Shown here piece after piece: positions 14,439 to 35,042 of a stretch of DNA of 38,155 nucleotides (position 1 is its first letter; every line of letters starts with the position of its first letter). This DNA is from Phycisphaerae bacterium. GTDB lineage: Bacteria > Planctomycetota > Phycisphaerae > Phycisphaerales > SM1A02. Position numbers and translations under genes: made by a program. The notes below the pieces were generated by a model. It saw only the letters and a list, made by a program, of their open reading frames with translations. It had not been told where the DNA came from and ran no database searches. Location: NCBI GenBank assembly GCA_002709755.1, contig PAQN01000028.1, positions 4,180 through 42,334 on the forward strand. The letters are read 5' to 3'.

Positions 14439-14478
14439 CAACTCGCCCGTTCCATGCTGGGCGGATTGGATTCGATAA

Positions 14479-14551
14479 TGATTCCGCTGGGGCTCGAACC
14501 CAGGACCTAGCGATTAAAAGTCGCGTGCTCTACCAACTGAGCTACGGAATC
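14479..14551 (-). tRNA. tRNA-Lys(UUU)
   Basis: This is a 73-nt cloverleaf with a 7-bp acceptor stem (GATTCCG with CGGAATC), a 4-bp D stem (GCTC/GAGC), the anticodon loop CTTTTAA with anticodon TTT, and a 5-bp T stem with TTCGAGC loop. The discriminator is A and CCA is not encoded. The outermost anticodon-stem pair (27-43) is a C-U mismatch. Confidence 0.95.
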
Positions 14552-14854
14552 AGGAATTCCCGATTCTAGCGGATATCCCATGAATTTCCCCACCAACCCC
14601 CCCTCCACATTTGATTCAGAGGCGAAAAATGCCGGATCTAGGTCCGGAAGGGGGAGGAATACGTCGTTCTCGGTGGATCAGTGTGGACTCGACCCCGTTC
14701 CCTGCCGATTGAAGATGTGCCTCCTTGAAAATCAAGGGGTCATGGTTTCGATTCAGCCACTCGATCACCTGTCCGAGCGCCACGACACCGGCGTTCCGGC
14801 AAGCCCGATCCTCTCCGTCTTTCGATGGAATGCATGCACTTTCAGGGAGCTTCT
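14552..14854. other. Non-coding gap between tRNA-Lys and the TolB-like gene
   Basis: No supported gene is seen in 303 nt. It holds the putative tRNA -10 box, a C-rich run (14597-14606) facing a G-rich run (14648-14657), an imperfect palindrome at 14632-14647 and a small perfect hairpin at 14723-14737 (6-bp stem, AAA loop). It presumably carries the promoters of both flanking genes, which diverge. Confidence 0.5.
14563..14568 (-). promoter_or_regulatory. Possible -10 box for tRNA-Lys
   Basis: TAGAAT on the minus strand lies 11 nt upstream of the mature tRNA 5' end. No convincing -35 box was found at the usual distance, so this is tentative. Confidence 0.3.
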
Positions 14855-16971: not shown

Positions 16972-17194
16972 GTCATTCCGTCCGATACCCGCTCAACCAA
17001 GTCCGAAAAACCACCGATGAATCGGACGTACCTCCTTCATCAGCAACCACTGGTATGGGAGGTGGGAGCCTCCGTTTCTTCGCCATCGGGGTTCTTCCAC
17101 GTTTGACGGCGATTTTATCGAACGAATTCCCCTTGCAGTGCGTATCTGTCGGGAAGGCAAGTCTGAATTCGAGCTGAGTTCTCGAGGATTAAAA

Positions 17195-18199
17195 ATGAGC
17201 GAGCATCTCCCAATCGTTGACCGCTTCATCAGTTATTTGAATGATGAGCGCCATTTCAGCCCCTACACCGGTCGTTGTTATGGTCTGGACCTTCGTCAGT
17301 ACACGGATCATCTCAGGGCTGCCTTCGACATCACCTGTGACGAGCAAGCCGAAGCGGCTGCTCTCGAAAGCCGTCTGTCAGGCAACGCGTCAGCTGACGC
17401 GGATCAGACCTGCACGGGACGAATGCTTTCAGCCGATCTTGAAATCGTGAGAGGGTTCATCGCCCACCTGGGCGAGCAGAACTATTCCGCCGCCACCATG
17501 GCTCGAAAGATCGCCACACTTCGTTCGTTCCACAAGTGGATGGAACGCAAGGGCCTGATCAAGAACAACCCCATGGTCCTGGTTCGCACGCCGAAGCAGG
17601 CGAAGCGTCTTCCCAAAGCCATCACGGTCGATGAAATCGAGCGCTTGCTGTCCGCCCCGGATGACATGGAGCTGCTCGGAGCACGTGACCGGGCGATTCT
17701 CGAGGTCCTCTATTCGACCGGCATCCGTGTCAGTGAAGTGGTGGGCATCAATCGTGGTGACGTCAATCTTCAGGATGAGGCCCTCGTCATTCGCGGCAAG
17801 GGCAAGCGCGAGCGCATCGTGCCGCTCGGCGCCCACGCCATCAAGTCCCTGATGCACTACGTCGACATGCTCGAGAAGCAGCTTGCTTCCGCTGGCCTGT
17901 CCGCCTCGGCAGATTCTCCGCTCTTCGTCAACAAGCATGGCGGCCGACTCAGCAGTCGTTCCGTGCGACGCAAGGTGTCGAAGTATCTCAGTGCGGTCGG
18001 CCTTGATCCCGAGATCAGTCCCCACACCATTCGACACAGCTTCGCCACGCACCTTCTGGACAACGGCGCGGATCTCCGTTCCGTGCAGGAGCTTCTTGGT
18101 CATCAATCGCTCAGTTCAACCCAGGTCTACACCCATCTCTCACGCCAGCGCATGCGAGACGGCTACGACAAGGGGCACCCGCGCGCCGAGTCCGCCTGA
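17195..18199 (+). CDS. xerC: Tyrosine recombinase XerC/XerD
   Basis: This encodes 334 residues from the ATG at 17195 (GAGGA 6 nt upstream). Xer recombinases resolve chromosome dimers at dif sites near the terminus. The N-terminal SAM-like core-binding domain (residues 1-140) includes RHFSPYTGRCYGLDLRQY and, unusually, about 30 extra residues (about 50-80, Ala/Ser/Asp-rich) between its helices. The catalytic domain carries Arg178 (STGIRVSE), Lys202 (RGKGKRER), His277-x-x-Arg280 (HTIRHSFATHLLDNGAD), His303 (LLGHQ) and the nucleophile Tyr312 (VYTHLS), so all active-site residues are present. XerC versus XerD cannot be decided here; an intact housekeeping enzyme is more likely than a phage integrase, as no mobile genes flank it. 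A strong terminator follows. Confidence 0.9.
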   Translation: MSEHLPIVDRFISYLNDERHFSPYTGRCYGLDLRQYTDHLRAAFDITCDEQAEAAALESRLSGNASADADQTCTGRMLSADLEIVRGFIAHLGEQNYSAATMARKIATLRSFHKWMERKGLIKNNPMVLVRTPKQAKRLPKAITVDEIERLLSAPDDMELLGARDRAILEVLYSTGIRVSEVVGINRGDVNLQDEALVIRGKGKRERIVPLGAHAIKSLMHYVDMLEKQLASAGLSASADSPLFVNKHGGRLSSRSVRRKVSKYLSAVGLDPEISPHTIRHSFATHLLDNGADLRSVQELLGHQSLSSTQVYTHLSRQRMRDGYDKGHPRAESA

Positions 18200-22418: not shown

Positions 22419-23672
22419 ATGAACATGCCATCATTCATCAGTCGTCTCACGGCGCTCTTCGGCCTGCTGCTTGTCCTCGCCCCGATCTCTTCTGCAGCCG
22501 ACCGGGTCCAGGCAGAGGATGAGCCCGCGGCGGATGCCGCCTCCAAGTCGGCTCCGATCCCCAAGATCTCATTTCAGCGTGCCTGGCCCGGAGTGAAGAC
22601 CCGACGTCCCGTGCAGATCGTCTCCCGACCCGATCGAGACGACGTTCTCTACATCGTCGAGCAGCTTGGACGGATTCGAACGGTCGATGGAAGCGATCTC
22701 ACCAGTGACGCCTCCGAACTGGCTCTGGACATCAGGGATCGCGTCAACGCACGGAGCAATGAAGAAGGCCTTCTCTCGGTGGCGTTTCACCCCGATTTCG
22801 CCGAGAACAACCAGGTCTATTGCTACTACACCGCCATCAAACCTCGTCGGGCCGTTCTCTCCCGCTTCGCCATGGACGAGGCCCGCGAGAAGATCCTGCC
22901 TCAGACCGAAGAAGTCATTCTCGAGATCGATCAGCCCTATTGGAATCACAACGGAGGCACCGTCGTCTTCGGCCCCGATGGAATGCTGTATCTGTCCATA
23001 GGTGATGGTGGCGCGGCGAATGATCCTCATGGCTACGGGCAGGACCTCACGACGCTGCTCTCCAAGGTGATTCGGATCGACGTCAGCGGCTCGGGCAAGA
23101 TTCCCTACGCCATTCCCTCGGACAATCCCTTCGTGGGCGTCGAGAACGTCCGTCCCGAGATCTGGGCCTACGGGTTGAGGAACATCTGGCGGATGAGTTT
23201 CGACCGCGAGAACGGAGACCTCTGGGCGGGGGATGTCGGGCAGAACAAGTGGGAGGAGATCGATCTCGTGGTCAAGGGTGGAAATTACGGCTGGAACAAG
23301 CGCGAAGGCGCCCACCCCTTCGGCCGTCAACGCCGTGGTTCGAACCCTGACGCGGATGTCGACCAGAACATGATCGATCCCGTCGCCGAATACAGTCATC
23401 GCGAGGGCCTCTCCGTGACCGGAGGGAACGTCTATCGAGGCAGTGAGTATCCACAGCTCGAAGGGGTCTACCTCTATGCGGATTATGCCTTCGGAACGGT
23501 CTGGGGTCTTCGTCGTGACGGCGATGAATTCATCGGCCCCGTCGAGGTCCTGCGGAAGCCGGGTTCCTTGATCTCGAGTTTCGGCGAGGCGAACGACGGG
23601 ACCATCTATGCGGTCTCCTTCGAACAGAGCGAGCAGGGACCGGGCGCGATCTGGAAGATCGTCGCACGCTGA
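22419..23672 (+). CDS. PQQ-dependent sugar dehydrogenase (GSDH family)
   Basis: This encodes 417 residues, with a start at 22419 or the in-frame ATG at 22425. A signal peptide ends near residue 25 (PISSAADR), giving a periplasmic enzyme. The family oxidises aldose sugars with pyrroloquinoline quinone in a six-bladed propeller. Recognisable parts are VEQLGRIRTV, NEEGLLSVAFHPDFAENN, the cofactor-site NHNGGTVVFGPDG (His177), YLSIGDGGAANDPHGYGQD, RPEIWAYGLRNIWRMSFD and DVGQNKWEEIDLVVKGGNYGW. It is a close match to aldose sugar dehydrogenase and the HHIP-like group. No PQQ synthesis genes are adjacent. The stop is 1 nt from the convergent acetyltransferase stop. Confidence 0.92.
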   Translation: MNMPSFISRLTALFGLLLVLAPISSAADRVQAEDEPAADAASKSAPIPKISFQRAWPGVKTRRPVQIVSRPDRDDVLYIVEQLGRIRTVDGSDLTSDASELALDIRDRVNARSNEEGLLSVAFHPDFAENNQVYCYYTAIKPRRAVLSRFAMDEAREKILPQTEEVILEIDQPYWNHNGGTVVFGPDGMLYLSIGDGGAANDPHGYGQDLTTLLSKVIRIDVSGSGKIPYAIPSDNPFVGVENVRPEIWAYGLRNIWRMSFDRENGDLWAGDVGQNKWEEIDLVVKGGNYGWNKREGAHPFGRQRRGSNPDADVDQNMIDPVAEYSHREGLSVTGGNVYRGSEYPQLEGVYLYADYAFGTVWGLRRDGDEFIGPVEVLRKPGSLISSFGEANDGTIYAVSFEQSEQGPGAIWKIVAR

Positions 23673-23673
23673 A

Positions 23674-24195
23674 TCAGGGTGCGTTCTTCGTCACGCTCCT
23701 CTTCGTCGGTCTGCGTTCGAAGAGAACCGTCGGTTCCTCTCCCGGTGCGTCCGGGTCCTTCTCTCCGATGTATGTGAATTCGAGCACGTTGAGAATTCTC
23801 AAGGCGGCGTAGTTCGATCTGGGCGGTGTGGCGATCAGTCGCTCCCGGCCCGATTCCTCGAGTTTCTTGATCGCTCCGGCCACGAGTTCGATGCCGAGGT
23901 CGTTGCCTCGATGCTTCGGATCGAGCCAGACGAAGAGTCTCTGTTCATCCTCCTGAAACGGATCGTCTCCCACGATCGCTCCGAAGAGGTCGTCCATGAC
24001 ACGGATGCGCCACAGTTTCTGGCCTCTTCCGAGCGCATCGATGATGACGCGCTCGATTTCGCCCATGTTCCTCGGTGCGACGTGTCCCGAGGCACTGAGT
24101 CCTTCGGGATCGGACGCGAGTTTCTCCGCGACGACTCTGCAATCGGTGTTGGTGATCGCGAACAGCTCTGGTGTGGGGATGTTTGAATCGTCCAT
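23674..24195 (-). CDS. GNAT-family N-acetyltransferase
   Basis: This encodes 173 residues; AAGG lies 8 nt before the ATG. The fold matches the GNAT superfamily of acetyl-CoA-dependent acyltransferases: strands near LWRIRVMDDLFGAIVG and RLFVWLDPKHRGNDLGIELV, the latter being the acetyl-CoA pyrophosphate loop (R-G-x-D-L-G, slightly off the Q/R-x-x-G-x-G/A consensus), then a helix and NYAALRILNVLEFTYIGEK, the usual 'N..a...yeklGF' ending. The substrate is not evident. It is the last gene of a minus-strand run, 14 nt after the acetylesterase. Confidence 0.75.
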   Translation of the reverse strand: MDDSNIPTPELFAITNTDCRVVAEKLASDPEGLSASGHVAPRNMGEIERVIIDALGRGQKLWRIRVMDDLFGAIVGDDPFQEDEQRLFVWLDPKHRGNDLGIELVAGAIKKLEESGRERLIATPPRSNYAALRILNVLEFTYIGEKDPDAPGEEPTVLFERRPTKRSVTKNAP

Positions 24196-24209
24196 GATGT
24201 CAACCTTTT

Positions 24210-26315
24210 TCAGTTCTTCGATTCGACCGGGATCTTGAATGGTGATGCTGGAAGACCCGACGAATTCATGACGTTCGCACGGACCGGGTTGTCCTGCCAG
24301 CCGTAACTGACAACACGTGGGACCCGCACTTCATTCGATGACACTACGACCCGGTTCAGACTCCTGATGAAACGGGCTTCAGCCCAGTGAAACACCCCGT
24401 CATCACCTGCCACGGCGAATCCGTCGGGGATGCGCCAGTCTCCGGCGAATTCGGGTGAATCGGCCATCCGGTCGGTACGGGGAACGGTCATTCCGCCTTC
24501 CGCATGATCGAAGGTGATGGTGACCGTGTTTCCTTCGGCGACCGCCTTCAAGGCGATCGGTCCGCTGGAAGCGAAGGATTCCATGCCGTACACGTCATGC
24601 AGCGCCCACCATCCAAGCCGTTCTCCGACGGGTTTCTTCCTTCGAGGATGTATGTCGTCCGCATCGCCCACATCCGTGGTCACGGCCAGTCCCGTTCCAG
24701 GAACGTTCCTGAATGCATGAAGTTGCGCATCCCGCAGATGGGCCCATCCACCCTGATCGGGATCGTCCGATGCCTGTTTGAATGCGGCGAGTTGGACGAT
24801 TCCAAAGGCGAGATGAGAACCGAAATCCTCGCGCCATGATTCGATCAGAAGCGGAAGCAGTTCTCGATATTCATCCGCCTCTCCCGAGTTGGATTCGCCC
24901 TGGTACCAGATCGCCCCTCGCACGCCGTAGGGGACGAATGGAGCGATCATGGCATCATGCAGCGTTCCCGGGGACTGTGGTGTCATGCCCGGCCTTCTCA
25001 TCGTCTCGTCCTCGAGGTTGGTGGTGAGCGTGCTTGCCACGCCTGTCTTCCAGCGCCAGCGTCCGCTGAGATCGATTCCTTCGATGTCCTCGCCCCTTGG
25101 TGTGAGGGCCATGGATGGTCCGGTGAATCCACCTGCGCCATGCGGATCCATGACGCAGACGACGATCGTCACGCTGCCTTGTCCCACGATGTCCGGGTCG
25201 ACTTCATAGGTTCGGATCGCGTCGTGACGGTTCGTGAGACTGCCGACCAGTGCACCGTTCACATAGGTCCTGTCGGAATCGTCTATTCGTCCGAGCTCAA
25301 GGGTAAGCGTCTTGTCGCGCCATGAACGGGGAATCTCGACGGTCTTTCTGAACCAGACCGTTCCATCGAAACTCGCCATGTCGGCTTCCGCACCTTCCCA
25401 TTCACGAGGAAGTTCCATGGTCTTCCAGCCTTCGTCCTCGAATGCCGGATCCATCCAGCCCGCCGTGTTCCCGGGGTCGCTCTCCATGATTCTGGCCCAG
25501 TAGGATTCGGCCTTGTTTCTCCGTCTTTTCGCGATCACCTCGCGTCTCTTCACGAGATCGTCCGCACTGATCGTGTCGTAGGCGGCGATCTCGTTCTGAA
25601 GCGCGATGGTTCTCTCGGAGAACGACGGATGCGCCGCGAGGTCCGCGCGTTCGATCCATGGCTCGATGCGGGTGCCGCCCCAGTTCGTCGAGATCAGACC
25701 CACCGGCACGTCGAGTTCGTTCTGAAGCGTCTCTGCGAAGAAGATGCCGACGGCCGACCAGTTGCCCACCGTTCGTTCGCTGCAGACCTCCCATCGAGCG
25801 TCGATGTCGTCCTGAGGCTCGGTCGCCAGAACATGCGGCGCCTTGATCAACCGGATGCGATCGTCCGCGAGCGTGCGCTTGTCACCTCCCGCGTCGCCGA
25901 TCTGGTCGATCGTCCACTCCATGTTCGACTGTCCGCCGCAGATCCAGACCTCTCCCACCAGGACGTCTTCGAATGTCATCGTGTCCCTGGGGGTCTTCGG
26001 CCTGGCTTCGTCGTATTCCGCGACCGTCAACGTCCAGTTCACAGTGGTGTTCGAGACTTCGGGAAGCTCGGCCGTCCATCGTCCTTCGGCATCGGCAGTG
26101 GCATAGGCCTCCACGAAAATCGGAGGACCGGATTTCGTCTGCTTCAGACTCACGGCGATGCGGCTTCCGGGCTCCGCCCATCCCCAGACCTGGATCGGCA
26201 TGTCCCGCTGCACCACCATGTGATCGGAAAAGACCGATGGTAGTCTCACTTCGGCATGAATCGTCGTGGTCAGCGCGGCCACGCAGGCCGCCACGAAAGC
26301 TGTTGATCTGCTCAT
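24210..26315 (-). CDS. Sialate O-acetylesterase-type SGNH hydrolase
   Basis: This encodes 701 residues from the ATG at 26315, which directly opens the signal peptide (MSRSTAFVAACVAALTTTIHA). The family removes O-acetyl groups from sialic acids or acetylated glycans in the periplasm. The N-terminal beta domain contains LPSVFSDHMVVQRDMPI and VWGWAEPGSRI. The SGNH core has EVWICGGQSNMEW (nucleophile Ser130), GLISTNWGGTRIEPWI and, near the end, GDADDIHPRRK with the D-x-x-H pair Asp553/His556. A carbohydrate-binding-like beta domain (about residues 265-410, TVWFRKTVEIP...TYVNGALVGS) is inserted before the second half of the core (GAIWYQGESNSGEADEY). This is the full domain set of large bacterial enzymes. 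It follows the M14 peptidase by 51 nt. Confidence 0.93.
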   Translation of the reverse strand: MSRSTAFVAACVAALTTTIHAEVRLPSVFSDHMVVQRDMPIQVWGWAEPGSRIAVSLKQTKSGPPIFVEAYATADAEGRWTAELPEVSNTTVNWTLTVAEYDEARPKTPRDTMTFEDVLVGEVWICGGQSNMEWTIDQIGDAGGDKRTLADDRIRLIKAPHVLATEPQDDIDARWEVCSERTVGNWSAVGIFFAETLQNELDVPVGLISTNWGGTRIEPWIERADLAAHPSFSERTIALQNEIAAYDTISADDLVKRREVIAKRRRNKAESYWARIMESDPGNTAGWMDPAFEDEGWKTMELPREWEGAEADMASFDGTVWFRKTVEIPRSWRDKTLTLELGRIDDSDRTYVNGALVGSLTNRHDAIRTYEVDPDIVGQGSVTIVVCVMDPHGAGGFTGPSMALTPRGEDIEGIDLSGRWRWKTGVASTLTTNLEDETMRRPGMTPQSPGTLHDAMIAPFVPYGVRGAIWYQGESNSGEADEYRELLPLLIESWREDFGSHLAFGIVQLAAFKQASDDPDQGGWAHLRDAQLHAFRNVPGTGLAVTTDVGDADDIHPRRKKPVGERLGWWALHDVYGMESFASSGPIALKAVAEGNTVTITFDHAEGGMTVPRTDRMADSPEFAGDWRIPDGFAVAGDDGVFHWAEARFIRSLNRVVVSSNEVRVPRVVSYGWQDNPVRANVMNSSGLPASPFKIPVESKN

Positions 26316-26366
26316 GTCATCAGTATGACACAAACCTCATCGCCGTCACCCCTCTTCGGGAGCGAA

Positions 26367-28712
26367 TCAATTCGTCCAGCTCGCAAGCAGCAGTGCGAGA
26401 TCGTCTCCAAGCACCGTGCCGTCACCGTTGATGTCCTCCGGACAGCCCTGGCAGTTCGTGCCCCATTTGGCCAGGAGTGCGGCGAGATCGGTTCCGTTGA
26501 CGAAGCCGTCGTTGTTGATGTCGGCGGGGTTGCCGCCCGGGCAACCCGCGGTCGTGATTCTGATGGCATCGACTCCCGCTTCGACCACCGATCCGGGCGC
26601 GTCGTCGGATGCCGTGAACCGCAGACGCAGTCCGCTGGTCACCGTGACGAAATCGCTGATCAGGAAACTCTCCTGCGACCAGCCGGTCTGGGCGCTGTTT
26701 CCATTGCTTCTCGAGAAGAGAGGGCTCCAGCTGGCGCCAGCGTCTCCCGAGATATCGACCACGAACACGTCGTCGTATTCGGTGTTGTTCGCGCTCGTGT
26801 TGTCGTACCACCACGAGAACCCGACCGAAGCCGAGGCGTTGGTCACCTCGTAGATCGGAGAGGTCAACTGCGTGGCGCCGCCGTCGATGTCGAACTCGCA
26901 TCCGAAGCTCGAGTTGCCGTTTCCAGTCACCCAGCAGCTGCCGCTGCCGTCGCTGTCGGCTCCGGGTGCACTGCAATCGTCCACCGAGATGGAGTCGTTG
27001 CTCGGCACGCCTCGTTCCCAACCTCCGGCGCTCAGTGAGCCATCATTGACGACGTTCCAGCCCAGGTCGCTCTCGAGATCATCCTCGACCAGGACCGTGA
27101 CATCCGTCGCGGACGTGGTGAGAACGCTCCCATCCTGCGGCCACATGAACATGTCGCCGCCGGAGTCGGTGATTCTCAGAGTCGCCGAGAGTGTCTCCCC
27201 GCAGTCGAGTACGGGCAGGGCGCCGCTCCAGCGGCCCAGTCCCTGATCGCTGAGTGCGACCGCCGGGGCGCTTTGGGGGATGATCTCCACGTTCGTGATC
27301 TGCGCGTTTCGGTTCCAGGTGGGCGCGACGTCGACCGTGATTCCCGTGGTCGCTCCCGAGTCGACGACCTCCGGCCATCCGCCGGACACGACGACGAAGA
27401 CACGATCTCGCACCGATTCCGCGAGCACCTTGAACGCCAGGAACATCTCGCTTCCCGTGGGCGCGATCTGGTCCGCGGGGAGAATGAAGCCGAACTGACC
27501 GGTGTCGCGCAGTTCGGGCGTGTACGAGAGCGTGTTCGCCGCGTCGTACGACCAGTCATCGGACACGCCCGAGGCCACGTAGAGCGCGTGGGCGGGTTCC
27601 GCGATGTAGATCCTGCCGTCGTAGCTCTCGATCGCCTCCACCATGTTGATGCCGACGGTTGCGAGGACCGTGCCCTCGGAACCCGGCGGGATCGATTCCT
27701 CGTATCCGTACGGATAGAGCATGAGCTGTGAATACGAATGAACGTCCACGTGCGCGGAAATGGTCGGCCTGCTCAGGATGTAGTCCCGCAGAGCTCTTGT
27801 CTCAGGTTCGCTGAACGCCGAGGCGCCCCGGTAGATGTCCGAGTTCGTGCTGCCGCTCGAACCCGGGCCGCCCCAGTTCGAATCGAAGTTTCGATTCCAG
27901 TCGACACCGAAGGTGCCGTCGCCATTGTTGCGTCTGTTCTTGCGCCAGAGTCGATTCTGATCCCAGGCGTAGGTGTACCCATCGGGATTGATCACTGGAA
28001 GGATGTGCCAGCGGATGTCCTGAAGAATGCCAGTGACCTGCGCATCGGTTCCGTAGCCTTCGAGCAGTGAGTTCACCAACCAGCAGACCGTCATCGGTGA
28101 GATCCATTCACGTGAGTGCGCCATGCCGTTGACACAGATCCCGCGTTTCTCCACGTCGCCCGGCGCCGTGATCTCATACGCCCAGATGGCTCGCCCCTCG
28201 ATCGAGGTCCCCGCCTGAGTCTTGCTGATCAACGTCGGATACTGCTCGATCAGGATGTCGAACCAGGCGTTGATCTCCTCGACTCTTCTGTAGTCATCGA
28301 AGAAATCCGCGCCACCAGCGAGCCCTCCGGATTCGGCGCCCGGAATCCAGACATGGTCCGCATGCCACGCGTTCTCACGGTCGATCAGGGCCTGGACGTC
28401 TGGAATCAGAAGTTCATAGGCGACACCGCTCTTCTCCAGAGCGGCCATGCGTTCCGGCGGGATTCTGAAATCGAGGCTTCCCAGTCCCATCGATTCGCTC
28501 CAGCAGTCCGGAGAGACCGCCAGCATGGTCCGCAGATCCCTGATGGTCTTGATCTCCGCCCGCACGACGGCATGGCCTTCGAATCGTTCCGGTCCTGCGG
28601 ATTCGTTCTCATCCTGAGCCAGCGCGCCGGCGCTCGTGGTGGCCAGTGCGATCGCGCAGGTGGTCCCAGGCAGACAGCGTCGAAGTCGGTTGATCCATCC
28701 CTTGTGATGCAT
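26367..28712 (-). CDS. Secreted M14 zinc carboxypeptidase with C-terminal dockerin-like module
   Basis: This encodes 781 residues from the ATG at 28712 (AAAGG 8 nt upstream), which opens a signal peptide ending in AGALAQ. After a pro-region-like part (residues 40-110) the M14 catalytic domain has the zinc ligands His199-x-x-Glu202 (MAHSREW) and His325 (VDVHSYSQ), the substrate Arg in NRNF (about 274) and the catalytic Glu400 (TPELRDTG). Residues about 440-710 form beta domains, the last resembling a laminin/MAM-like jelly roll (FSWWYDNTSANNTEYDDVF). The final 60 residues carry two EF-like loops, DINNDGFVNGTDL and DINGDGTVLGDDL, each followed by a Trp-bearing helix (LLAKWG, LLASW). This is the Phycisphaerae-style dockerin-like tail, probably for cell-surface attachment. 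Confidence 0.93.
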   Translation of the reverse strand: MHHKGWINRLRRCLPGTTCAIALATTSAGALAQDENESAGPERFEGHAVVRAEIKTIRDLRTMLAVSPDCWSESMGLGSLDFRIPPERMAALEKSGVAYELLIPDVQALIDRENAWHADHVWIPGAESGGLAGGADFFDDYRRVEEINAWFDILIEQYPTLISKTQAGTSIEGRAIWAYEITAPGDVEKRGICVNGMAHSREWISPMTVCWLVNSLLEGYGTDAQVTGILQDIRWHILPVINPDGYTYAWDQNRLWRKNRRNNGDGTFGVDWNRNFDSNWGGPGSSGSTNSDIYRGASAFSEPETRALRDYILSRPTISAHVDVHSYSQLMLYPYGYEESIPPGSEGTVLATVGINMVEAIESYDGRIYIAEPAHALYVASGVSDDWSYDAANTLSYTPELRDTGQFGFILPADQIAPTGSEMFLAFKVLAESVRDRVFVVVSGGWPEVVDSGATTGITVDVAPTWNRNAQITNVEIIPQSAPAVALSDQGLGRWSGALPVLDCGETLSATLRITDSGGDMFMWPQDGSVLTTSATDVTVLVEDDLESDLGWNVVNDGSLSAGGWERGVPSNDSISVDDCSAPGADSDGSGSCWVTGNGNSSFGCEFDIDGGATQLTSPIYEVTNASASVGFSWWYDNTSANNTEYDDVFVVDISGDAGASWSPLFSRSNGNSAQTGWSQESFLISDFVTVTSGLRLRFTASDDAPGSVVEAGVDAIRITTAGCPGGNPADINNDGFVNGTDLAALLAKWGTNCQGCPEDINGDGTVLGDDLALLLASWTN

Positions 28713-28909
28713 GGTGGGGTGCCTTTCATGGTTCGCCCAGCCGCTTTCGGTTTCATTTCGAGCTCGATATCGTGGTCTGCAGGCGATGTGGGGTTCTTCA
28801 TGATCCGCCGAAAAACCCCCCGGGGCAACTGTTTTGCCTCGAATCCGATCAATGAAACCCACATGATGGACTCTTGCCCGCCCCGTGACCCCCCGATAGC
28901 CTCGGAGAC

Positions 28910-31189
28910 ATGCCTGTCTGCTCCCTGATTCTGGCGATCTGCCTTTCCGGCGTCGATGATCGACTCCGGGGCTTCGTCGAGCACTGGTGTCTCGACTGCC
29001 ATCAGGGAACCGGGGCCAAGGCCGATCTGGACCTCGGCGTGCTTCTCGATCGCATCGAGCAGGGCGAGCGTCCCGATTCGCTCTGGCGGATGCTGACGCG
29101 TCTCGAACGGGGTGACATGCCTCCGCCCGATTGGGATCAGCCCCCACGCCAGTCCGTCCAGTCCGTCATCGGTGAACTGCATGCGATGAGAGCCCGCCTG
29201 TCCGAGGGTCCCTCGCCACGCACCATCGCGCGGCGATTGAATCGTTTCGAGTACGCGAACACCGTGAGGGATCTCATCGGTGTGGAGATCGATCCGGTTC
29301 AGTCTCTGCCGGTCGACGAGATAGGTTCCGGTTTCGACAACAGTGGCGACGTGCTCTCCGTCAATCCGCTTCTTCTCGAGAAGTATCTCCTGCTGGCGGA
29401 GACCATCACCCGGCGGGCGCTGCCACGCCCGGGTGAACTCAACTCCGAAGCCGTTCGGTACGAGGGGAATCGGTTCGACGCCTCCGGCAAGGTCCGTGCG
29501 CGAGGATCGAGCTGGTTCTTCACTTCGCGCGGCCGGGTCGAAGTGGCGCTGGATGTCCCGGTCTCGGGGGATTATCTCCTGCGTCTTCGCTGTGCTGCCG
29601 ATCAGGCCGGCCCCGACAATGCACGATTCGTGGTTCGACTCGGGTCCCGCGTGGTGGGGCGGTTCGAGGTGGACGCACCCGATCGAACGCCGGCGGACTT
29701 CGAGATTCCGCTCTCTCTCGATTCCGGCCCGGCACGGTGTTCCGTCTCCTTCGTCAACGATTATTTCGATCCCGACGCCTCCGATCCCTCCGAGCGCGAT
29801 CGGAATCTCTCACTCGAGTGGATCGATCTGGTCGGTCCGATTCGTGCCGCCTATCCCTCATCCTTTCAGAGGCGGATGGCCGCGGAACATGGCACGCCCC
29901 AGTCACCCCGGGCGCTTCGTGCCTGGCTGGTGGACCTCCTGACCCGTGCCTGGAGAAGAGATCCCCGGCCGGGTGAAGTCGATGCCCTTCACGCGCTGGC
30001 GCTTCGCGAAGACGGCACATGGAACCGTGTCGAGATCGCCCTGACGGCATTGCTCGTCCATCCCAATTTTCTCTTTCGCATCGAGCCCGAAGGCATAGAG
30101 CCCGGGTCATCCGGCTCATCGGTCGAACGACCGCTCACCGGCTTCGAGATCGCTTCCCGTTTGTCCTATTTTCTCTGGTCGAGCATGCCGGATGAATCCC
30201 TGATGAGCGCCGCGCGCGATGGTCGGCTCGAGACCGCGGCCGGTCGAGCGGAACAGATCGAGCGCATGCTGGAGTCACCCAAGAGCGAGGCATTGTCGAG
30301 ACACTTCGCCACTCAGTGGCTGCAGATACGAACGCTCGATCAGAGACTTCCTGCTGCCGATCTGTTTCCCGAGGTCGAACCCGAACTGCTGTCGTCCATG
30401 GATCTGGAGACCCGGCGTTTCTTCGACGAACTTCTTCGAGAGGATCTTCCCGTCGACCGTCTTCTCGACGCCGACTGGAGCTGGCTCGATGAACGACTCG
30501 CTCGTCACTACGGCATCGAGGGAGTGACCGGCGACGCCTTTCGAAAGGTCTTCGTCGATCCGCCTTCCGATGGTGCTGGTCTTCTGCGCCACGGCAGCAT
30601 CCTGCTCGCCACCAGCAATCCCACGCGCACGTCACCGGTCAAGCGGGGGAAGTGGGTGCTCGAGGCGCTCCTCGACGATGCTCCGCCACCTCCGCCGCCT
30701 GGAATCTCCGGCTTGCCGGAGGATGGTGAGGTCGCACCCGACGCCACGCTTCGGGAGCTTCTGGAACGGCACCGAGCCGATCCGAACTGCGCGGCATGCC
30801 ACATACGAATGGACGCACTCGGTTTCGCGCTTGAATCATTCGACGCCGTGGGTCGTCAGCGTCGGGTCGATGGTCTTGGTCGGCCCATCGATGATCGCGG
30901 TGAACTGCCCGACGGAACGATCATCGAGGGTGCCTCCGGAATTCGTGACGCACTGCTGCAGGGCGAGACCCGCGCCGAATTCATGCGTTCTCTGGCACGA
31001 CACCTCGCAACCTACGCCCTTGGTCGCGGTCTCGATCCTCGAGACGACGAGGTGATCGATCGGATCAGCGAATCATTCATGAAAACCCCGACACTCCGCA
31101 GCCTGATCCACGAAATCGTCGAGAGTCGACTTTTCCTGTATCGCCCATCCTCAGTTGATGCGATGATCGAACTCAGGAGCACGGATTGA
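28910..31189 (+). CDS. Planctomycete DUF1592/DUF1588 cytochrome-like protein
   Basis: This encodes 759 residues with a short signal (MPVCSLILAICLSG). Domain order is that of planctomycete-specific proteins: a cytochrome c-like heme site CLDCH (Cys27-Cys30-His31); DUF1587 (RRLNRFEYANTVRDLIG, about 106-165); a carbohydrate-binding-like beta domain (about 190-300); DUF1595 (AWRRDPRPGEVDALHAL, about 340-400); DUF1592 (GFEIASRLSYFLWSSMPDE, about 405-530); DUF1588 with NPTRTSPVKRGKWVLEALL and a second CAACH motif (Cys627-Cys630-His631); and DUF1585 (HLATYALGRGLDPRDDEV). Function is unproven; family context points to periplasmic electron transfer with sugar or polymer breakdown. The stop overlaps the start of the DUF1552 gene (TGATG). 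Confidence 0.93.
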   Translation: MPVCSLILAICLSGVDDRLRGFVEHWCLDCHQGTGAKADLDLGVLLDRIEQGERPDSLWRMLTRLERGDMPPPDWDQPPRQSVQSVIGELHAMRARLSEGPSPRTIARRLNRFEYANTVRDLIGVEIDPVQSLPVDEIGSGFDNSGDVLSVNPLLLEKYLLLAETITRRALPRPGELNSEAVRYEGNRFDASGKVRARGSSWFFTSRGRVEVALDVPVSGDYLLRLRCAADQAGPDNARFVVRLGSRVVGRFEVDAPDRTPADFEIPLSLDSGPARCSVSFVNDYFDPDASDPSERDRNLSLEWIDLVGPIRAAYPSSFQRRMAAEHGTPQSPRALRAWLVDLLTRAWRRDPRPGEVDALHALALREDGTWNRVEIALTALLVHPNFLFRIEPEGIEPGSSGSSVERPLTGFEIASRLSYFLWSSMPDESLMSAARDGRLETAAGRAEQIERMLESPKSEALSRHFATQWLQIRTLDQRLPAADLFPEVEPELLSSMDLETRRFFDELLREDLPVDRLLDADWSWLDERLARHYGIEGVTGDAFRKVFVDPPSDGAGLLRHGSILLATSNPTRTSPVKRGKWVLEALLDDAPPPPPPGISGLPEDGEVAPDATLRELLERHRADPNCAACHIRMDALGFALESFDAVGRQRRVDGLGRPIDDRGELPDGTIIEGASGIRDALLQGETRAEFMRSLARHLATYALGRGLDPRDDEVIDRISESFMKTPTLRSLIHEIVESRLFLYRPSSVDAMIELRSTD

Positions 31190-32562
31190 TGCGAACGCCC
31201 GGACGACAACTCGATCGAAGAACCATGCTTCGCGGCATGGGCACCGCCATGTCCCTGCCCTGGCTCGAGGCCATGGTGCCCGGTGGGCTCTCACGAGTCG
31301 GATCGTCCGCGCTCGCAGGCTCGAGCAACTCGACGACTCCTCTGCGCACCGCCTTCGTCTTCATTCCGAATGGAGTCGATCCCGAGGTCTGGCATCCCAT
31401 CGGGGAAGGTCGTGACTATCAGCTCTCCTCGTCGCTCGCACCTCTGGAGCCGCTGCGTGAGAAGTTCAGCGTGCTGTCGGGTCTGGCCCATCACAACGCG
31501 AAGGCGCTTGGGGACGGTCCCGGCGACCATGCCAGATCGGCCGCCTGTTTTCTGACCGGAGCCCATCCCTACAAGACGGCGGGACGCGACATCCAGGTCG
31601 GGATCTCCGTAGACCAGGTGGCCGCCAACGCACTCGGCGGTCGCACGCATCTTCCATCACTCGAACTCGGCTGCGAACCCGCGCTTCAATCCGGCAACTG
31701 CGACTCGGGATATTCCTGCGCCTACAGCGCGAACATCTCCTGGCGCACCAGCCGGCAACCGAATCTCAAGGAGATCCGGCCTCGGGAGGTCTTCGAGCGA
31801 CTCTTCGGTTTCGGCCCCGCTCAGGAGACCGAACGCGCCCGCGCCCGGCGCATGCGGACCCGTCGGTCCATCCTGGATTTCGTCAGCTCGGATGCTCGTC
31901 GTCTCGATGCCACGCTCGGCGTCGAGGATCGACATCGCATGGATGAATATCGAGAGAGCGTCCGAGCCGTGGAGAAACGCATCGAGATGATCGAGCGGGC
32001 GACGTTCGACCCCGAGGCGTTCCACTCCATCCGACCGGTGCAAGGCGTGCCCGCCGACTACCGTGAGCATGTCGGCCTGATGAACGACATGCTGGTCCTC
32101 GCCTTTCGGCTCGACCAGACCCGCATCGCGAGTTTCATGCTCGCCAACGAGGGCTCCAATCGGAAGTTCCCTTCGATCGGCGTCTCCGAAGGTCATCATC
32201 ATCTGTCCCATCACAAGGGCGACCTTGCGATGATCGAGAAGATCCGCGCCATCAACCGTTTTCAGAGCGAGATGCTTCTCGACCTGCTCGGCAAACTGGA
32301 TTCGGTCGAGGAGCGGGGGGGGACTCTTCTGGACAATTCGATGATCCTCTACGGCAGCGCCATCGCCGATGGCAATCGTCACAACCATGATGATCTGCCG
32401 TTGATTCTCGCCGGCGGCGGAGGGGGTTCACTCAGACCGGGGCGTCATGTCAGATACGAATCCGGCACGCCGCTTTCGAACCTCTACGTCTCGATGTTGC
32501 AGCGAATGGGTCTCGAGACCGATCGATTCGGAGATTCCAACGGGGTTCTCACCGGCATCTGA
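31189..32562 (+). CDS. DUF1552 protein, Tat-exported
   Basis: This encodes 457 residues; its ATG overlaps the upstream TGA by one base. The N-terminus has a twin-arginine motif (LDRRTMLRGMG) and a hydrophobic stretch. The DUF1552 core contains RTAFVFIPNGVDPEVW, LSGLAHHNAKALGDGPGDHARSAA, CEPALQSGNCDSGYSCAYS, EGHHHLSHHKGDLAMIEKI and LYGSAIADGNRHNHDDLP. The many conserved His/Asp residues resemble the sulfatase/phosphatase-like DUF1501 group, suggesting a metal-dependent hydrolase in the periplasm. It is habitually encoded with DUF1592/DUF1588 proteins in Planctomycetota, as here. Confidence 0.92.
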   Translation: MRTPGRQLDRRTMLRGMGTAMSLPWLEAMVPGGLSRVGSSALAGSSNSTTPLRTAFVFIPNGVDPEVWHPIGEGRDYQLSSSLAPLEPLREKFSVLSGLAHHNAKALGDGPGDHARSAACFLTGAHPYKTAGRDIQVGISVDQVAANALGGRTHLPSLELGCEPALQSGNCDSGYSCAYSANISWRTSRQPNLKEIRPREVFERLFGFGPAQETERARARRMRTRRSILDFVSSDARRLDATLGVEDRHRMDEYRESVRAVEKRIEMIERATFDPEAFHSIRPVQGVPADYREHVGLMNDMLVLAFRLDQTRIASFMLANEGSNRKFPSIGVSEGHHHLSHHKGDLAMIEKIRAINRFQSEMLLDLLGKLDSVEERGGTLLDNSMILYGSAIADGNRHNHDDLPLILAGGGGGSLRPGRHVRYESGTPLSNLYVSMLQRMGLETDRFGDSNGVLTGI

Positions 32563-32595
32563 CGTTGCGAGGGCCTCTGCGCTATCCTCAACGCC

Positions 32596-33330
32596 ATGAA
32601 GAACATTCCATCAATCGTTCTGGCTCTTTCGGTTCTCGGTCTTCTCGCGATGCGAGGGCAGGATGCGACACCCGTCACGCCCTCAGACGACCAGGCCGCT
32701 CCCGCGGTCGACGTCACGCCGCCCGCGGCGACTCGGCGTCCGATCTACGGTGAGACCGTCCAGCTCTTCAACGGCGAGAATCTCGACGACTGGACGGCGT
32801 TCTTCATCGGTGGTTCCACGGATCCCGCAGAAGCCTTCTTCGTGGAGGACGGCATTCTCAAGAGCAAGGGACTGCCCATCGGGTACATCCGGACGAAGCA
32901 GAAGTACACCTCCTACCACCTCGTGGCCGAGTGGCGGTTCGATGCGAAGAAGGGTGGGGGCAACAGCGGTCTGTTGATGCGCATCATCAGCGAGGACAAG
33001 GTCTGGCCTCGTTGCATCGAAGCGCAGCTTCATTCACGCAACGCCGGCGACATCTGGAACATCGAGGAGTTTCCGATGAAGACCGAGAGGTCACGCCAGA
33101 GCGGTCGACGAACCAAGAAGATCGCGCCCAGCAACGAGAAACCCCTCGGTGAATGGAATCGGTACGAGATCACCCTCGACGGCGAGTACCTTGAGTTGAA
33201 GGTGAACGGTCTGGTCCAGAACGTCGCGACCGGGTGCGGGGTCTTCGCCGGACCGATCGGACTCCAGTCGGAAGGTGTCTGGATCGAGGTGCGCAAGCTC
33301 GAGCTGCGACCGATCATCGGTCACGAATGA
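32596..33330 (+). CDS. DUF1080 family, 3-keto-disaccharide hydrolase-like
   Basis: This encodes 244 residues with an N-terminal hydrophobic signal (PSIVLALSVLGLLAM). After a Pro/Ala-rich linker the family fold (concanavalin-like jelly roll) begins with TVQLFNGENLDDWTAFF. Further signatures are VEDGILKSKGLPIGYIRT, YHLVAEWRFDAKKGGGNSGLLMRI, CIEAQLHSRNAGDIW, GEWNRYEITLDGEYLELKVNG and PIGLQSEGVWIEVRKLEL. Some family members cleave 3-keto-glycosides in bacterial sugar catabolism; others are uncharacterised. It lies 33 nt after the DUF1552 gene and 19 nt before the transporter, so it belongs to the same transcript. Confidence 0.92.
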   Translation: MKNIPSIVLALSVLGLLAMRGQDATPVTPSDDQAAPAVDVTPPAATRRPIYGETVQLFNGENLDDWTAFFIGGSTDPAEAFFVEDGILKSKGLPIGYIRTKQKYTSYHLVAEWRFDAKKGGGNSGLLMRIISEDKVWPRCIEAQLHSRNAGDIWNIEEFPMKTERSRQSGRRTKKIAPSNEKPLGEWNRYEITLDGEYLELKVNGLVQNVATGCGVFAGPIGLQSEGVWIEVRKLELRPIIGHE

Positions 33331-33349
33331 TCACGGGAGTTCTTCACTC

Positions 33350-34771
33350 GTGAATCTCGATGTCGAGACCAATCAGTTTCGCCGCGTGATGCTCGTCGCC
33401 GGTCCCGTTCTGGCCGGGCTCGTCGCCTCGGCCCTGCATCTCGCGGGTCATTCATCCGAGATCTGCTGGACCGCGGCGATCACGGTGCTCTGCGCCGCAT
33501 GGTGGGTGACCGAGGCCGTTCCCATTCCGGCGACCTCGCTGATCCCGATGGCGCTGCTGCCCCTGACCGGCGTCCTCGACCACAAGACCGTCGCCAACGC
33601 CTACGGGCACTACCTGATTCTTCTGCTCATGGGTGGTTTCATGCTCTCGAAGGCGATGGAGAAATCCGGGGCCCACGAGAAGGTCGCGCTTGCGATCATC
33701 CGCGTCGTCGGCGCCGAAAGTCCGCGTCGACTCATCTTCGGGGTGATGCTCGCGACCGCACTGATCTCGATGTGGGTCAGCAACACCGCGACCACGCTCG
33801 CGATGCTGCCGGTCGCGCTCGCGATGCTCTCCGTGCTCGACGACAAGCGGTTCGCGGTGCCGCTTCTTCTCGGCATCGCCTTCGCCGCGAACATCGGTGG
33901 CATCGGAACACCCATCGGGACGCCTCCGAACATCGCGTTCATGGCGGCGTTCGACGAACTCGTCCTGCCGAATTCGACCGAGGAGCAGCCGATCGCGCCC
34001 TGGTCCTTCGCACGCTGGATGACGCTCGGTCTTCCCGTGGTGGGGGTTCTTCTTCCTCTGACCTGGTGGTGGCTCACGCGCGGGCTTGGTGGTGGGATCT
34101 CACTCACCCTGCCCCGAAGGACGACCTGGACCAGCGCTCAGGTCCGCGTGCTGGTCGTCTTCACCATCACGGCGTGTCTCTGGATCTTTCGTTCGACGCC
34201 CGGTGGTGGGTGGTCGGCGCTGATCGGTGTCCCCAAGGGGATCGGGGATTCCAGCATCGCCGCCCTGATGGTGGTTCTGATGTTCATCATTCCTGATGGC
34301 CGTGGACAGAAGCTGCTCGATTGGAAATCGGCATCATCTATCCCATGGGGGATTCTTCTCCTCTTCGGGGGCGGCATCGCACTGGCGCAGGGATTCAAGT
34401 CGTCCGGACTCAGCGATCTGCTGGCCAATCAGTTGATCGGCGTGACCCTTCTGCCCGAGTTCATCATGATCCTCGCGATCTGCCTCGCCGTCACCTTCCT
34501 CACCGAGGTGACCAGCAACACCGCGATCACGCTGCTTTTGATGCCAATCATGGCCAGCGCCGCCGTTTCCGCAGGCATCGAGCCCGCGAAGTTGATGATT
34601 CCAGCCGCCATGAGCGCCTCCTGCGCCTTCATGATGCCGGTGGCCACCGCTCCGAACGCCGCGGTCTACGGAACCGGCCGCATCCCCATGCGTCGGATGA
34701 ACGGGGAAGGCCTGGCCTTGAACGTGATCGGGGCTTTCGTGATCGCCGCCATCTGCACCGTGCTGATCTGA
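33350..34771 (+). CDS. SLC13/DASS family sodium-anion symporter
   Basis: This encodes 473 residues from a GTG at 33350 with CGGGAG about 10 nt upstream. About eleven membrane spans are visible. The two family signatures are present, SNTATTLAMLPVAL near residue 144 and EVTSNTAITLLLMPIMAS near 386, each with the SNT motif that binds sodium and substrate carboxylates, plus GIGTPIGTPPNIAF and AMSASCAFMMPVATAPNAAV. Members import dicarboxylates, sulfate or citrate with sodium. The substrate here is not determined. As the last gene of the DUF1592-DUF1552-DUF1080 operon, it may take up an organic-acid product of that pathway. Confidence 0.9.
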   Translation: MNLDVETNQFRRVMLVAGPVLAGLVASALHLAGHSSEICWTAAITVLCAAWWVTEAVPIPATSLIPMALLPLTGVLDHKTVANAYGHYLILLLMGGFMLSKAMEKSGAHEKVALAIIRVVGAESPRRLIFGVMLATALISMWVSNTATTLAMLPVALAMLSVLDDKRFAVPLLLGIAFAANIGGIGTPIGTPPNIAFMAAFDELVLPNSTEEQPIAPWSFARWMTLGLPVVGVLLPLTWWWLTRGLGGGISLTLPRRTTWTSAQVRVLVVFTITACLWIFRSTPGGGWSALIGVPKGIGDSSIAALMVVLMFIIPDGRGQKLLDWKSASSIPWGILLLFGGGIALAQGFKSSGLSDLLANQLIGVTLLPEFIMILAICLAVTFLTEVTSNTAITLLLMPIMASAAVSAGIEPAKLMIPAAMSASCAFMMPVATAPNAAVYGTGRIPMRRMNGEGLALNVIGAFVIAAICTVLI

Positions 34772-34874: not shown

Positions 34875-35042
34875 TTGGACGAAACAAACACATCATTCGC
34901 GATGCTCGTCATCCTCGGCACCACTGCCGGTGTTTTCGGCGGTCTCGTCGCCACCTTCTTCGGCTGGGTGTTGTGGAACAGCATCGAAGAGGTGCCTGAA
35001 GAAGACGATGCCTCCGAAGATGATGCGTCACAATCCTCCTGA
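34875..35042 (+). CDS. 55-residue single-span membrane protein
   Basis: This short gene starts at TTG 34875, with GGAGAG 6 nt upstream, and ends at TGA 35040-35042. A short polar N-terminus (LDETNTSFA) precedes one membrane helix (MLVILGTTAGVFGGLVATFF) and a juxtamembrane GWVLWNSI. The C-terminal tail of about 17 residues is strongly acidic (EEVPEEDDASEDDASQSS). The in-frame ATG at 34902 would shorten it to 46 residues and has no good ribosome-binding site. The layout resembles small regulatory subunits of membrane complexes, but no family is recognised. It has its own possible promoter and sits between the transporter and the DUF481 gene. Confidence 0.6.
   Translation: MDETNTSFAMLVILGTTAGVFGGLVATFFGWVLWNSIEEVPEEDDASEDDASQSS

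Follow-up and report, generated by a model that had tools for sequence, protein, structure and literature searches.

Within the 38,155-nucleotide stretch of a Phycisphaerae contig analysed here (hereafter the window), we located four open reading frames on the plus strand: g1 (28910..31189), encoding a PSD/PSCyt3 diheme protein (DUF1592/1588/1587/1585/1595); g2 (31189..32562), encoding a DUF1552 (HXXSHH) protein; g3 (32596..33330), encoding a member of the DUF1080/3-keto-disaccharide hydrolase family; and g4 (33350..34771), encoding an SLC13/DASS Na+-coupled anion symporter with a GTG start. Two starts were moved: that of g2 from the listed TTG at 31186 to the ATG at 31189, with which g2 overlaps the end of g1 by a single nucleotide (TGATG), and that of g4 from the GTG at 33275 to the GTG at 33350, where alignments of g4 relatives likewise begin, and with which g3 and g4 lie 19 nt apart. 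With 33 nt separating g2 from g3, the positions and close spacing originally proposed for the four genes are borne out. Upstream lie a divergent M14 carboxypeptidase gene (26367..28712, minus strand), syntenic in other genomes and not counted in the system, and a glucose/sorbosone dehydrogenase-like (GSDH) gene (22419..23672, plus strand), syntenic in the genus and in genome G010, which is a candidate accessory sugar oxidase.

Profile searches of g1 identified PSD4, PSCyt3, PSD3, PSD2, PSD5 and CBM60 above the Pfam cut-offs, with PSCyt1 scoring slightly below (21.2 versus 22). The two heme motifs predicted for this protein were found as CLDCH (residues 27-31) and CAACH (residues 627-631), and two CXXCH motifs occur in all 41 homologues retained after filtering by length and frame. 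Also identified was a CBM6/35/36/60-like domain (residues ~178-311), which aligned structurally with CBM36 and CBM35 (Z 15.8-15.1); sequence searches of the PDB returned no significant match for g1 or g2, and no catalytic site was identified in either protein.

The g2 product, assigned to the Pfam family HXXSHH (DUF1552), carries an N-terminal twin arginine (R10-R11) that is invariant (61/61). As modelled by AlphaFold (pLDDT 81.1, with low confidence at residues about 201-290), the protein has a predicted fold of the alkaline-phosphatase/sulfatase superfamily, with VIA values of Z 16.8 and rmsd 3.9 over 274 residues and Foldseek values of E 3.7e-4 and TM 0.38. Compared with the five sulfatases of the same genome, the g2 profile showed weak, purely local similarity (probability 3.4, E 0.013), whereas the match to the genome's five DUF1501 proteins was better, albeit not conclusive (probability 57.7, E 1e-4). 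The formylglycine cysteine motif (C-x-P/A-x-R) is absent from g2, and an invariant histidine, His114, occupies the position of the sulfatase catalytic cysteine as judged by its spacing to a T-G motif. Because of this replacement, classical sulfatase chemistry is unlikely, and we rejected the assignment of g2 as a classical sulfatase. Invariant aspartate and histidine residues of g2 could bind metal.

Assignment of g3 to 3keto-disac_hyd (PF06439) is supported by 99.1 bits against a gathering score of 26.8, and its family profile found 14 different sequences in the PDB, from glycosyl hydrolases of the DUF1080 type. The protein has a hydrophobic N-terminus and is a putative enzyme for cleavage of a 3-keto-glycoside. 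Among the 10 window proteins scanned, comprising the cluster and its near neighbours, none was a GFO or LacABC-type 3-dehydrogenase. The genome possesses a GFO-DUF1080-MFS set elsewhere, on contig C58, whose DUF1080 protein is only 25% identical to g3.

The g4 transporter matched Pfam CitMHS/Na_sulph_symp and the NCBIfam DASS model TIGR00785 (244 bits versus a cut-off of 198.6), possesses two SNT motifs (residues 144-146 and 389-391), and aligned with VcINDY across residues 32-469 of 473; VcINDY and the citrate transporter SLC13A5 are among its best PDB sequence relatives. No DASS transporter is known to carry a sugar acid, a point against the module proposed below. Downstream of g4 we found an unannotated 55-codon reading frame with a TTG start (34875..35042, plus strand), whose product would comprise a single hydrophobic segment and an acidic tail. 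A comparable unannotated frame of 52-55 codons accompanies g4 in 6/6 genomes with the linkage. Unlinked g4 homologues in eight further genomes (L081-L088) have varied neighbours and no single common partner; those scanned include a GH38 mannosidase (L081) and GFO oxidoreductases (L086, L088), and SASA-like genes lie in L084. By genome, g4-like genes lie near GFO/IDH/MocA oxidoreductases in G044 and G049 and near a GH38 mannosidase in G053, and a g3-like gene lies near a GFO/IDH/MocA oxidoreductase in G051; such settings favour the module proposed below.

A promoter-like element was identified before g3 (32559..32588, plus strand), consisting of CTGACG (32559-32564), which overlaps the g2 stop codon, an 18-nt spacer, and TATCCT (32583-32588), ending 7 nt before the g3 ATG. 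The arrangement CTGACG-N17/18-TAT(C/G)CT-N6/7-ATG is kept in all four cluster-bearing genomes of the genus, the window included; its -10-like pattern was defined after being seen, and since these genomes are related their per-genome shuffle frequencies are not to be multiplied. Before the called genes of relatives a similar pattern occurred in 3/15 (L035), 1/12 (L036), 0/13 (L037) and 0/10 (L038) cases, counted with a pattern that misses the TATGCT of G002. A second -10-like box, TAGCCT, precedes g1 (28897..28902, plus strand), and takes the form TAGCCT or TAGGCT in the five genomes shown. The original prediction of a single four-gene operon thus holds for the tight gene order, which recurs in the genus, but is at odds with the conserved element that g3 has of its own, and a strict single operon was set aside as the simplest reading. 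Given that the genus shares this element, g1-g2 and g3-g4 look like adjoining transcription units, with read-through between them possible.

The order g1-g2-g3-g4 was found in four genomes of the genus, and its presence in the three besides the window's indicates that it is not an accident of assembly. Synteny in the genus nevertheless spans far beyond these genes, from GSDH to a metallophosphatase, so that linkage within the genus is weak evidence. Among 61 genomes, 22 possess g2; g3 and g4 lie nearby in five of these, and in the other 17 the g1-g2 pair is unlinked to them. Close homologues of g3 and g4 sit apart from the pair in many relatives, and linkage of the pair to g3-g4 was seen in two genera only. 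Across 80 g2 loci from several phyla, counted within the DNA fetched around g2, a g1-like gene was near g2 in 71, DUF1080 in four and SLC13 in one. The linkage of DUF1080 and SLC13 to the pair is therefore missing in most relatives, whereas the description of g1-g2 as a known pair of unproven function stands. A 2017 survey agrees on the latter point, reporting that PSCyt3 genes typically have members of a single uncharacterised gene family as neighbours and that their functions are entirely unknown, in a section that does not name DUF1552 (PMC5615132). Genes recurring downstream of g2 formed one larger group only (8/75 loci), the sole scanned member of which is a HEAT-repeat protein. A search of plasmid DNA gave three short matches.

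An expanded form of the cluster was identified in a second genus (G010 and ALOHA_ZT_32), where the order begins g1-g2-PPTase-g3 and continues with two large fusion proteins followed by SLC13. The first fusion combines DUF7133/TIGR02604, HEAT, NPCBM, cytochrome c and DUF1080, this last domain being 65% (G010) and 59% (ALOHA) identical to g3; the second combines DUF1080, a TIGR02604-like domain and cytochrome c, and SLC13 begins 16 and 17 nt past it in the two genomes. These DUF1080-dehydrogenase-like-cytochrome fusions support a role in oxidation, cleavage and import better than the window does alone. An earlier proposal of glycoside oxidation, cleavage and uptake gains from these fusions, yet lacks a GFO or LacABC-type enzyme in the cluster, and uptake of an acidic product through SLC13 is conjectural.

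Taken together, we tentatively favour, with a probability of about 0.38, a periplasmic module for sugar oxidation and uptake built from two adjoining transcription units. Here g1 would be exported, resembling a diheme cytochrome and carrying a carbohydrate-binding module, and g2 would be its Tat-type partner, with a sulfatase-type fold lacking the sulfatase nucleophile; the pair would bind a glyco-substrate and either join in its oxidation or accept the resulting electrons. The 3-keto-glycoside arising from C3 oxidation would be split by g3, through hydrolysis or elimination, and we infer that g4 may bring in an acidic, anionic product of this chemistry together with Na+. An oxidation-elimination pathway was reportedly described in Bacteroides in 2024. 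A bolder version, which we consider distinctly unlikely, holds that the PSCyt3-DUF1552 pair would itself act as a cytochrome-linked oxidase of glycosides, or as the half of one that accepts electrons, with the sister-genus fusions as a covalently joined form of this chemistry and the 55-codon frame as a companion of the importer.

A tenable, if doubtful, alternative is that the genes are chance neighbours, g1-g2 being a common stand-alone pair and g3-g4 a separately promoted one whose SLC13 takes up di- or tricarboxylates, with an adjacency specific to the lineage. The element before g3, the 17 genomes with an unlinked pair, the varied surroundings of SLC13 homologues in eight others, and the kinship of g4 with SLC13A5 and VcINDY all agree with it; however, the linkage is kept in the second genus despite insertions, and these insertions are the DUF1080-dehydrogenase-cytochrome fusions beside SLC13. 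Alternatively, and in our view unlikely, g1-g2 might act hydrolytically or in electron transfer on a decorated carbohydrate without C3 oxidation, g2 for instance removing a substituent and g3 acting on a different bond. While the predicted fold of g2, its potential metal-binding residues and the CBM-like domain of g1 are consistent with such a role, the histidine in place of the sulfatase cysteine speaks against it, and the heme motifs of g1 point to redox chemistry. Quite improbable is C1 oxidation, whereby the GSDH-like protein would turn an aldose supplied by g3 into a lactone or aldonic acid, with g1 handling electrons and g4 importing the acid: this would account for an anion transporter, and GSDH, a SASA esterase and M14 keep their place next to the cluster both in the genus and in G010, but GSDH lies about 5 kb away behind three opposite-strand genes, and the scheme is not specific to g1-g4.

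Should the bolder version be correct, the PSCyt3-DUF1552 pair would make 3-keto-glycosides for DUF1080, giving a function to a long-unexplained planctomycete pair. Many planctomycetes and verrucomicrobia encode PSCyt/PSD proteins partnered by DUF1552 or DUF1501 proteins. A locus joining this pair to DUF1080, fusions and a transporter provides a short list of testable proteins and substrates, and the modelled DUF1552 sulfatase fold, with histidine replacing the cysteine, is a directly testable prediction. In the open-licence literature we found no report linking DUF1080 to PSCyt/DUF1552; a DUF1552 gene is listed in an expression table of PMC2754498. PSCyt genes were suggested in the 2017 survey to parallel the genes for glycoside hydrolases to some degree (PMC5615132).

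Compared with the PSCyt3/PSD and DUF1552 pair of PVC bacteria (PMC5615132), g1-g2 match in domain set, two heme motifs, adjacency and a CBM-like domain, although pairs elsewhere mostly lack the adjoining DUF1080 and SLC13. Known DUF1080 modules include the 3-ketotrehalose hydrolase BT2157 and Caulobacter CCNA_01705, which stands beside LacABC and is implicated in periplasmic 3'-ketolactose cleavage (PMC9007349). The window cluster likewise combines a single-domain DUF1080 protein bearing a hydrophobic N-terminus with adjacent redox proteins and a transporter, but has no adjacent GFO/LacABC dehydrogenase, and its transporter is an SLC13. PVC-type heme-binding proteins of TIGR02604/TIGR02603 occur in the sister-genus cluster and not in that of the window, whose genome encodes one such protein above cut-off, outside the cluster. 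Finally, g4 shares TIGR00785, two SNT motifs and the VcINDY alignment with DASS/SLC13 symporters such as VcINDY and NaCT/SLC13A5, from which it differs in having a DUF1080 gene as its genomic partner.

All four ORFs of the predicted cluster are present in the window, on the plus strand and in the order g1-g2-g3-g4, comprising a PSD/PSCyt3 diheme protein with DUF1592, DUF1588, DUF1587, DUF1585 and DUF1595 domains and a CBM60 match (g1; 28910-31189), a DUF1552 protein (g2; 31189-32562), a DUF1080 protein (g3; 32596-33330; PF06439, 99.1 bits against a cut-off of 26.8) and a DASS/SLC13 symporter (g4; 33350-34771). The starts of g2 (ATG 31189) and g4 (GTG 33350) were corrected relative to a mechanical gene list; the spacing is as tight as originally described, with a one-base overlap of g1 and g2 and gaps of 33 nt between g2 and g3 and 19 nt between g3 and g4. 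The draft genome (G000) comprises 2.62 Mb in 59 contigs, and the nearest named relatives encountered are Planctomycetes bacterium TMED75 (locus L100), a member of its genus, and Phycisphaerales bacterium ALOHA_ZT_32 (L101). The source is therefore a Phycisphaerales-type planctomycete, and the names of these relatives point to a marine origin. Genes for a GSDH-like dehydrogenase, a SASA esterase and an M14 carboxypeptidase (22419-28712) adjoin the cluster at a conserved position both within the genus and in G010, a genome of the sister genus. Also observed were a phage-integrase-family gene and a tRNA-Lys (17138-18199 and 14478-14552), representing a possible mobile element or chromosomal recombinase.

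Across 61 genomes (G000 and 60 relatives), g2 was found in 22, its own genome included. Based on positions in the g3 and g4 searches and on fetched neighbourhoods, both g3 and g4 are found no more than ~10 kb from g2 in five of these, namely four genomes of one genus (G000, G002, G003 and G004) and one of a second (G010). Among the other 17, g3 and g4 were on different contigs, distant or absent, several of the unlinked contigs being short enough (3.9 kb in G015, 4.8 kb in G036) that linkage over contig ends is possible; the 54% complete G001, of the window's genus, gave no g2 or g4 match. Synteny among the four congeneric genomes reaches from GSDH to a metallophosphatase, far beyond four genes, so that linkage within the genus adds little beyond common descent. 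A profile scan of named genomes confirmed at least 496 g2 loci; in the DNA fetched for the best 80, g1-like genes were identified in 71, g3-like DUF1080 genes in four (two of these 26-27% identical and >4 kb away) and g4 in one, all lower bounds since some contigs are short. In ALOHA_ZT_32, g4 lies just beyond the end of the fetched locus. In a family-wide search, 17 of 181 genomes carried close homologues of g4 (E <= 1e-95), six of them linked (G010, the four of the window's genus and G110, where place and score coincide with those of the ALOHA_ZT_32 match); among the remaining 11, G036 was examined and carries g2, g3 and g4 on three separate contigs. Linkage of g3 and g4 to the g1-g2 pair, on which the original prediction depended, is missing from most relatives but holds in the two cluster-bearing genera. 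Contigs labelled Acidimicrobiia, Bacillota and Actinomycetota (L111, L114 and L179) also carry DUF1552 genes sharing 50-52% identity with the query; these may be mis-binned or transferred.

In the sister genus (G010 and ALOHA_ZT_32), the g1-g2 pair is followed by genes for a phosphopantetheinyl transferase and g3, and then by genes for two large proteins, of 1274/1285 and 1177/1176 aa; SLC13 comes last, starting 16 and 17 nt, respectively, past the stop of the second large protein. Both large proteins are fusions (L038:3264-7088 and L070:14720-18253; L101:5634-13032), with NCBIfam domains assigned in G010 only. The first contains a dehydrogenase-like region (DUF7133/TIGR02604), HEAT repeats, NPCBM and cytochrome c, and its C-terminal DUF1080 shares 65% (G010) or 59% (ALOHA_ZT_32) identity with g3. 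The second combines an N-terminal DUF1080 with TIGR02604-like (below cut-off) and cytochrome c parts at its end. G006 likewise encodes a protein of 1172 aa in which DUF1080 is N-terminal and cytochrome c C-terminal, ~4 kb from a g3 homologue. The fusions are the strongest indication that oxidation is coupled with DUF1080 cleavage at this locus. They lend support to the originally proposed role, a plausible one, in which a glycoside would be oxidised to its 3-keto form and cleaved, and an acidic product imported.

The proteins of the pair were further examined through predicted models. CXXCH motifs start at residues 27 and 627 of g1, and two are present in all 41 homologues passing a length and frame filter. 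Its model (pLDDT 85.6) shows, at about residues 178-311, a beta-sandwich similar to structures of CBM36/35/6 (VIA Z 15.8, rmsd 2.0 over 117 residues); several CBM families tie among these matches, so that no single ligand is indicated. The g2 model (pLDDT 81.1, weak around residues 201-290) matches the alkaline-phosphatase superfamily, with a VIA Z of 16.8 to a Pedobacter sulfatase (rmsd 3.9 over 274 residues) and a best Foldseek match at E 3.7e-4 and TM 0.38. His114, invariant in 61 aligned g2 proteins, precedes the T of T123-G124 by nine residues; in the five sulfatases of G000 the Cys is equally far from their own T-G, and in its five DUF1501 proteins that position is an invariant His. By spacing, the His of g2 would take the place of the sulfatase nucleophile. 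The twin Arg R10-R11 is invariant in 61/61, as expected for predicted Tat export. Two DUF1501 proteins, on G000 contigs C43 and C51 (L190 and L191), look nearly identical in alignment, reflecting either a recent duplication or an assembly duplicate.

The 31-33 nt gap before g3 has one layout in all four congeneric genomes: CTGACG, 17-18 nt, TATCCT or TATGCT, 6-7 nt, and the ATG. When the gaps were shuffled, a box of this kind arose at the same position in 0.2-0.5% of cases for each genome, and an equally well-scoring site anywhere in 0.2-1.2%. The pattern TA[TG]C[CAG]T, picked after the fact, lies 12-13 nt before five of 1353 ATGs on both strands of the window (2626, 22419, 28910, 32596 and 36175), four of which belong to the 22 listed gene starts; the fifth is an in-frame ATG, 33 nt into the metallophosphatase ORF as called, and may be where that gene really begins. 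This placement suggests leaderless promoters, which may be common in this lineage, and a separate g3-g4 transcription unit with a predicted promoter. The pattern is rarer among called genes of the relatives' loci. A plain consensus scan of the window did not report the g3 site, because nine of 12 matches were demanded and the site has eight. The proposal of a single operon needs qualification, given this promoter-like element in four genomes.

An unannotated 55-codon ORF with a TTG start (34875-35042) was also identified. Such ORFs (52-55 codons, TTG/GTG starts, one hydrophobic segment, an acidic tail; no Pfam match) lie close after g4 in all of the six linked genomes but G010, where the separation is ~1.4 kb. 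Among the 61 genomes they were found in five, the same five in which the cluster is linked. Since the linked genomes represent the two closest genera, this distribution could be due to phylogeny alone.

An alignment of g3 with 16 DUF1080 domains has 15 invariant columns, and a profile built from it retrieves 14 distinct PDB sequences, all annotated as hydrolases of the glycosyl, sugar or 3-keto-disaccharide type. Two SNT motifs are present in g4; in VcINDY-type transporters, SNT motifs bind Na+ and carboxylate. GFO/IDH/MocA oxidoreductases were found near a g3-like gene (G051) and g4-like genes (G044, G049), and in G053 a GH38 alpha-mannosidase gene lies 23 nt past the SLC13 homologue (L081:5110-9086), a possible further glycan link of this SLC13 branch. 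G000 itself has eight DUF1080 and seven GFO/IDH/MocA domain matches, and one TIGR02604 protein over cut-off, with a sub-cut-off match on the window's GSDH. On its contig C58 (L091:7302-11266), the gene for a GFO/IDH/MocA oxidoreductase whose N-terminus looks Tat-like by eye is grouped with genes for a DUF1080 protein and an MFS transporter, side by side, in a canonical-looking 3-keto-glycoside set. The window cluster combines two known kinds of system, the PSCyt3-DUF1552 pair and a DUF1080 module, and appears to resemble the redox-DUF1080-transporter plan of C58 while differing in its redox and transport parts.
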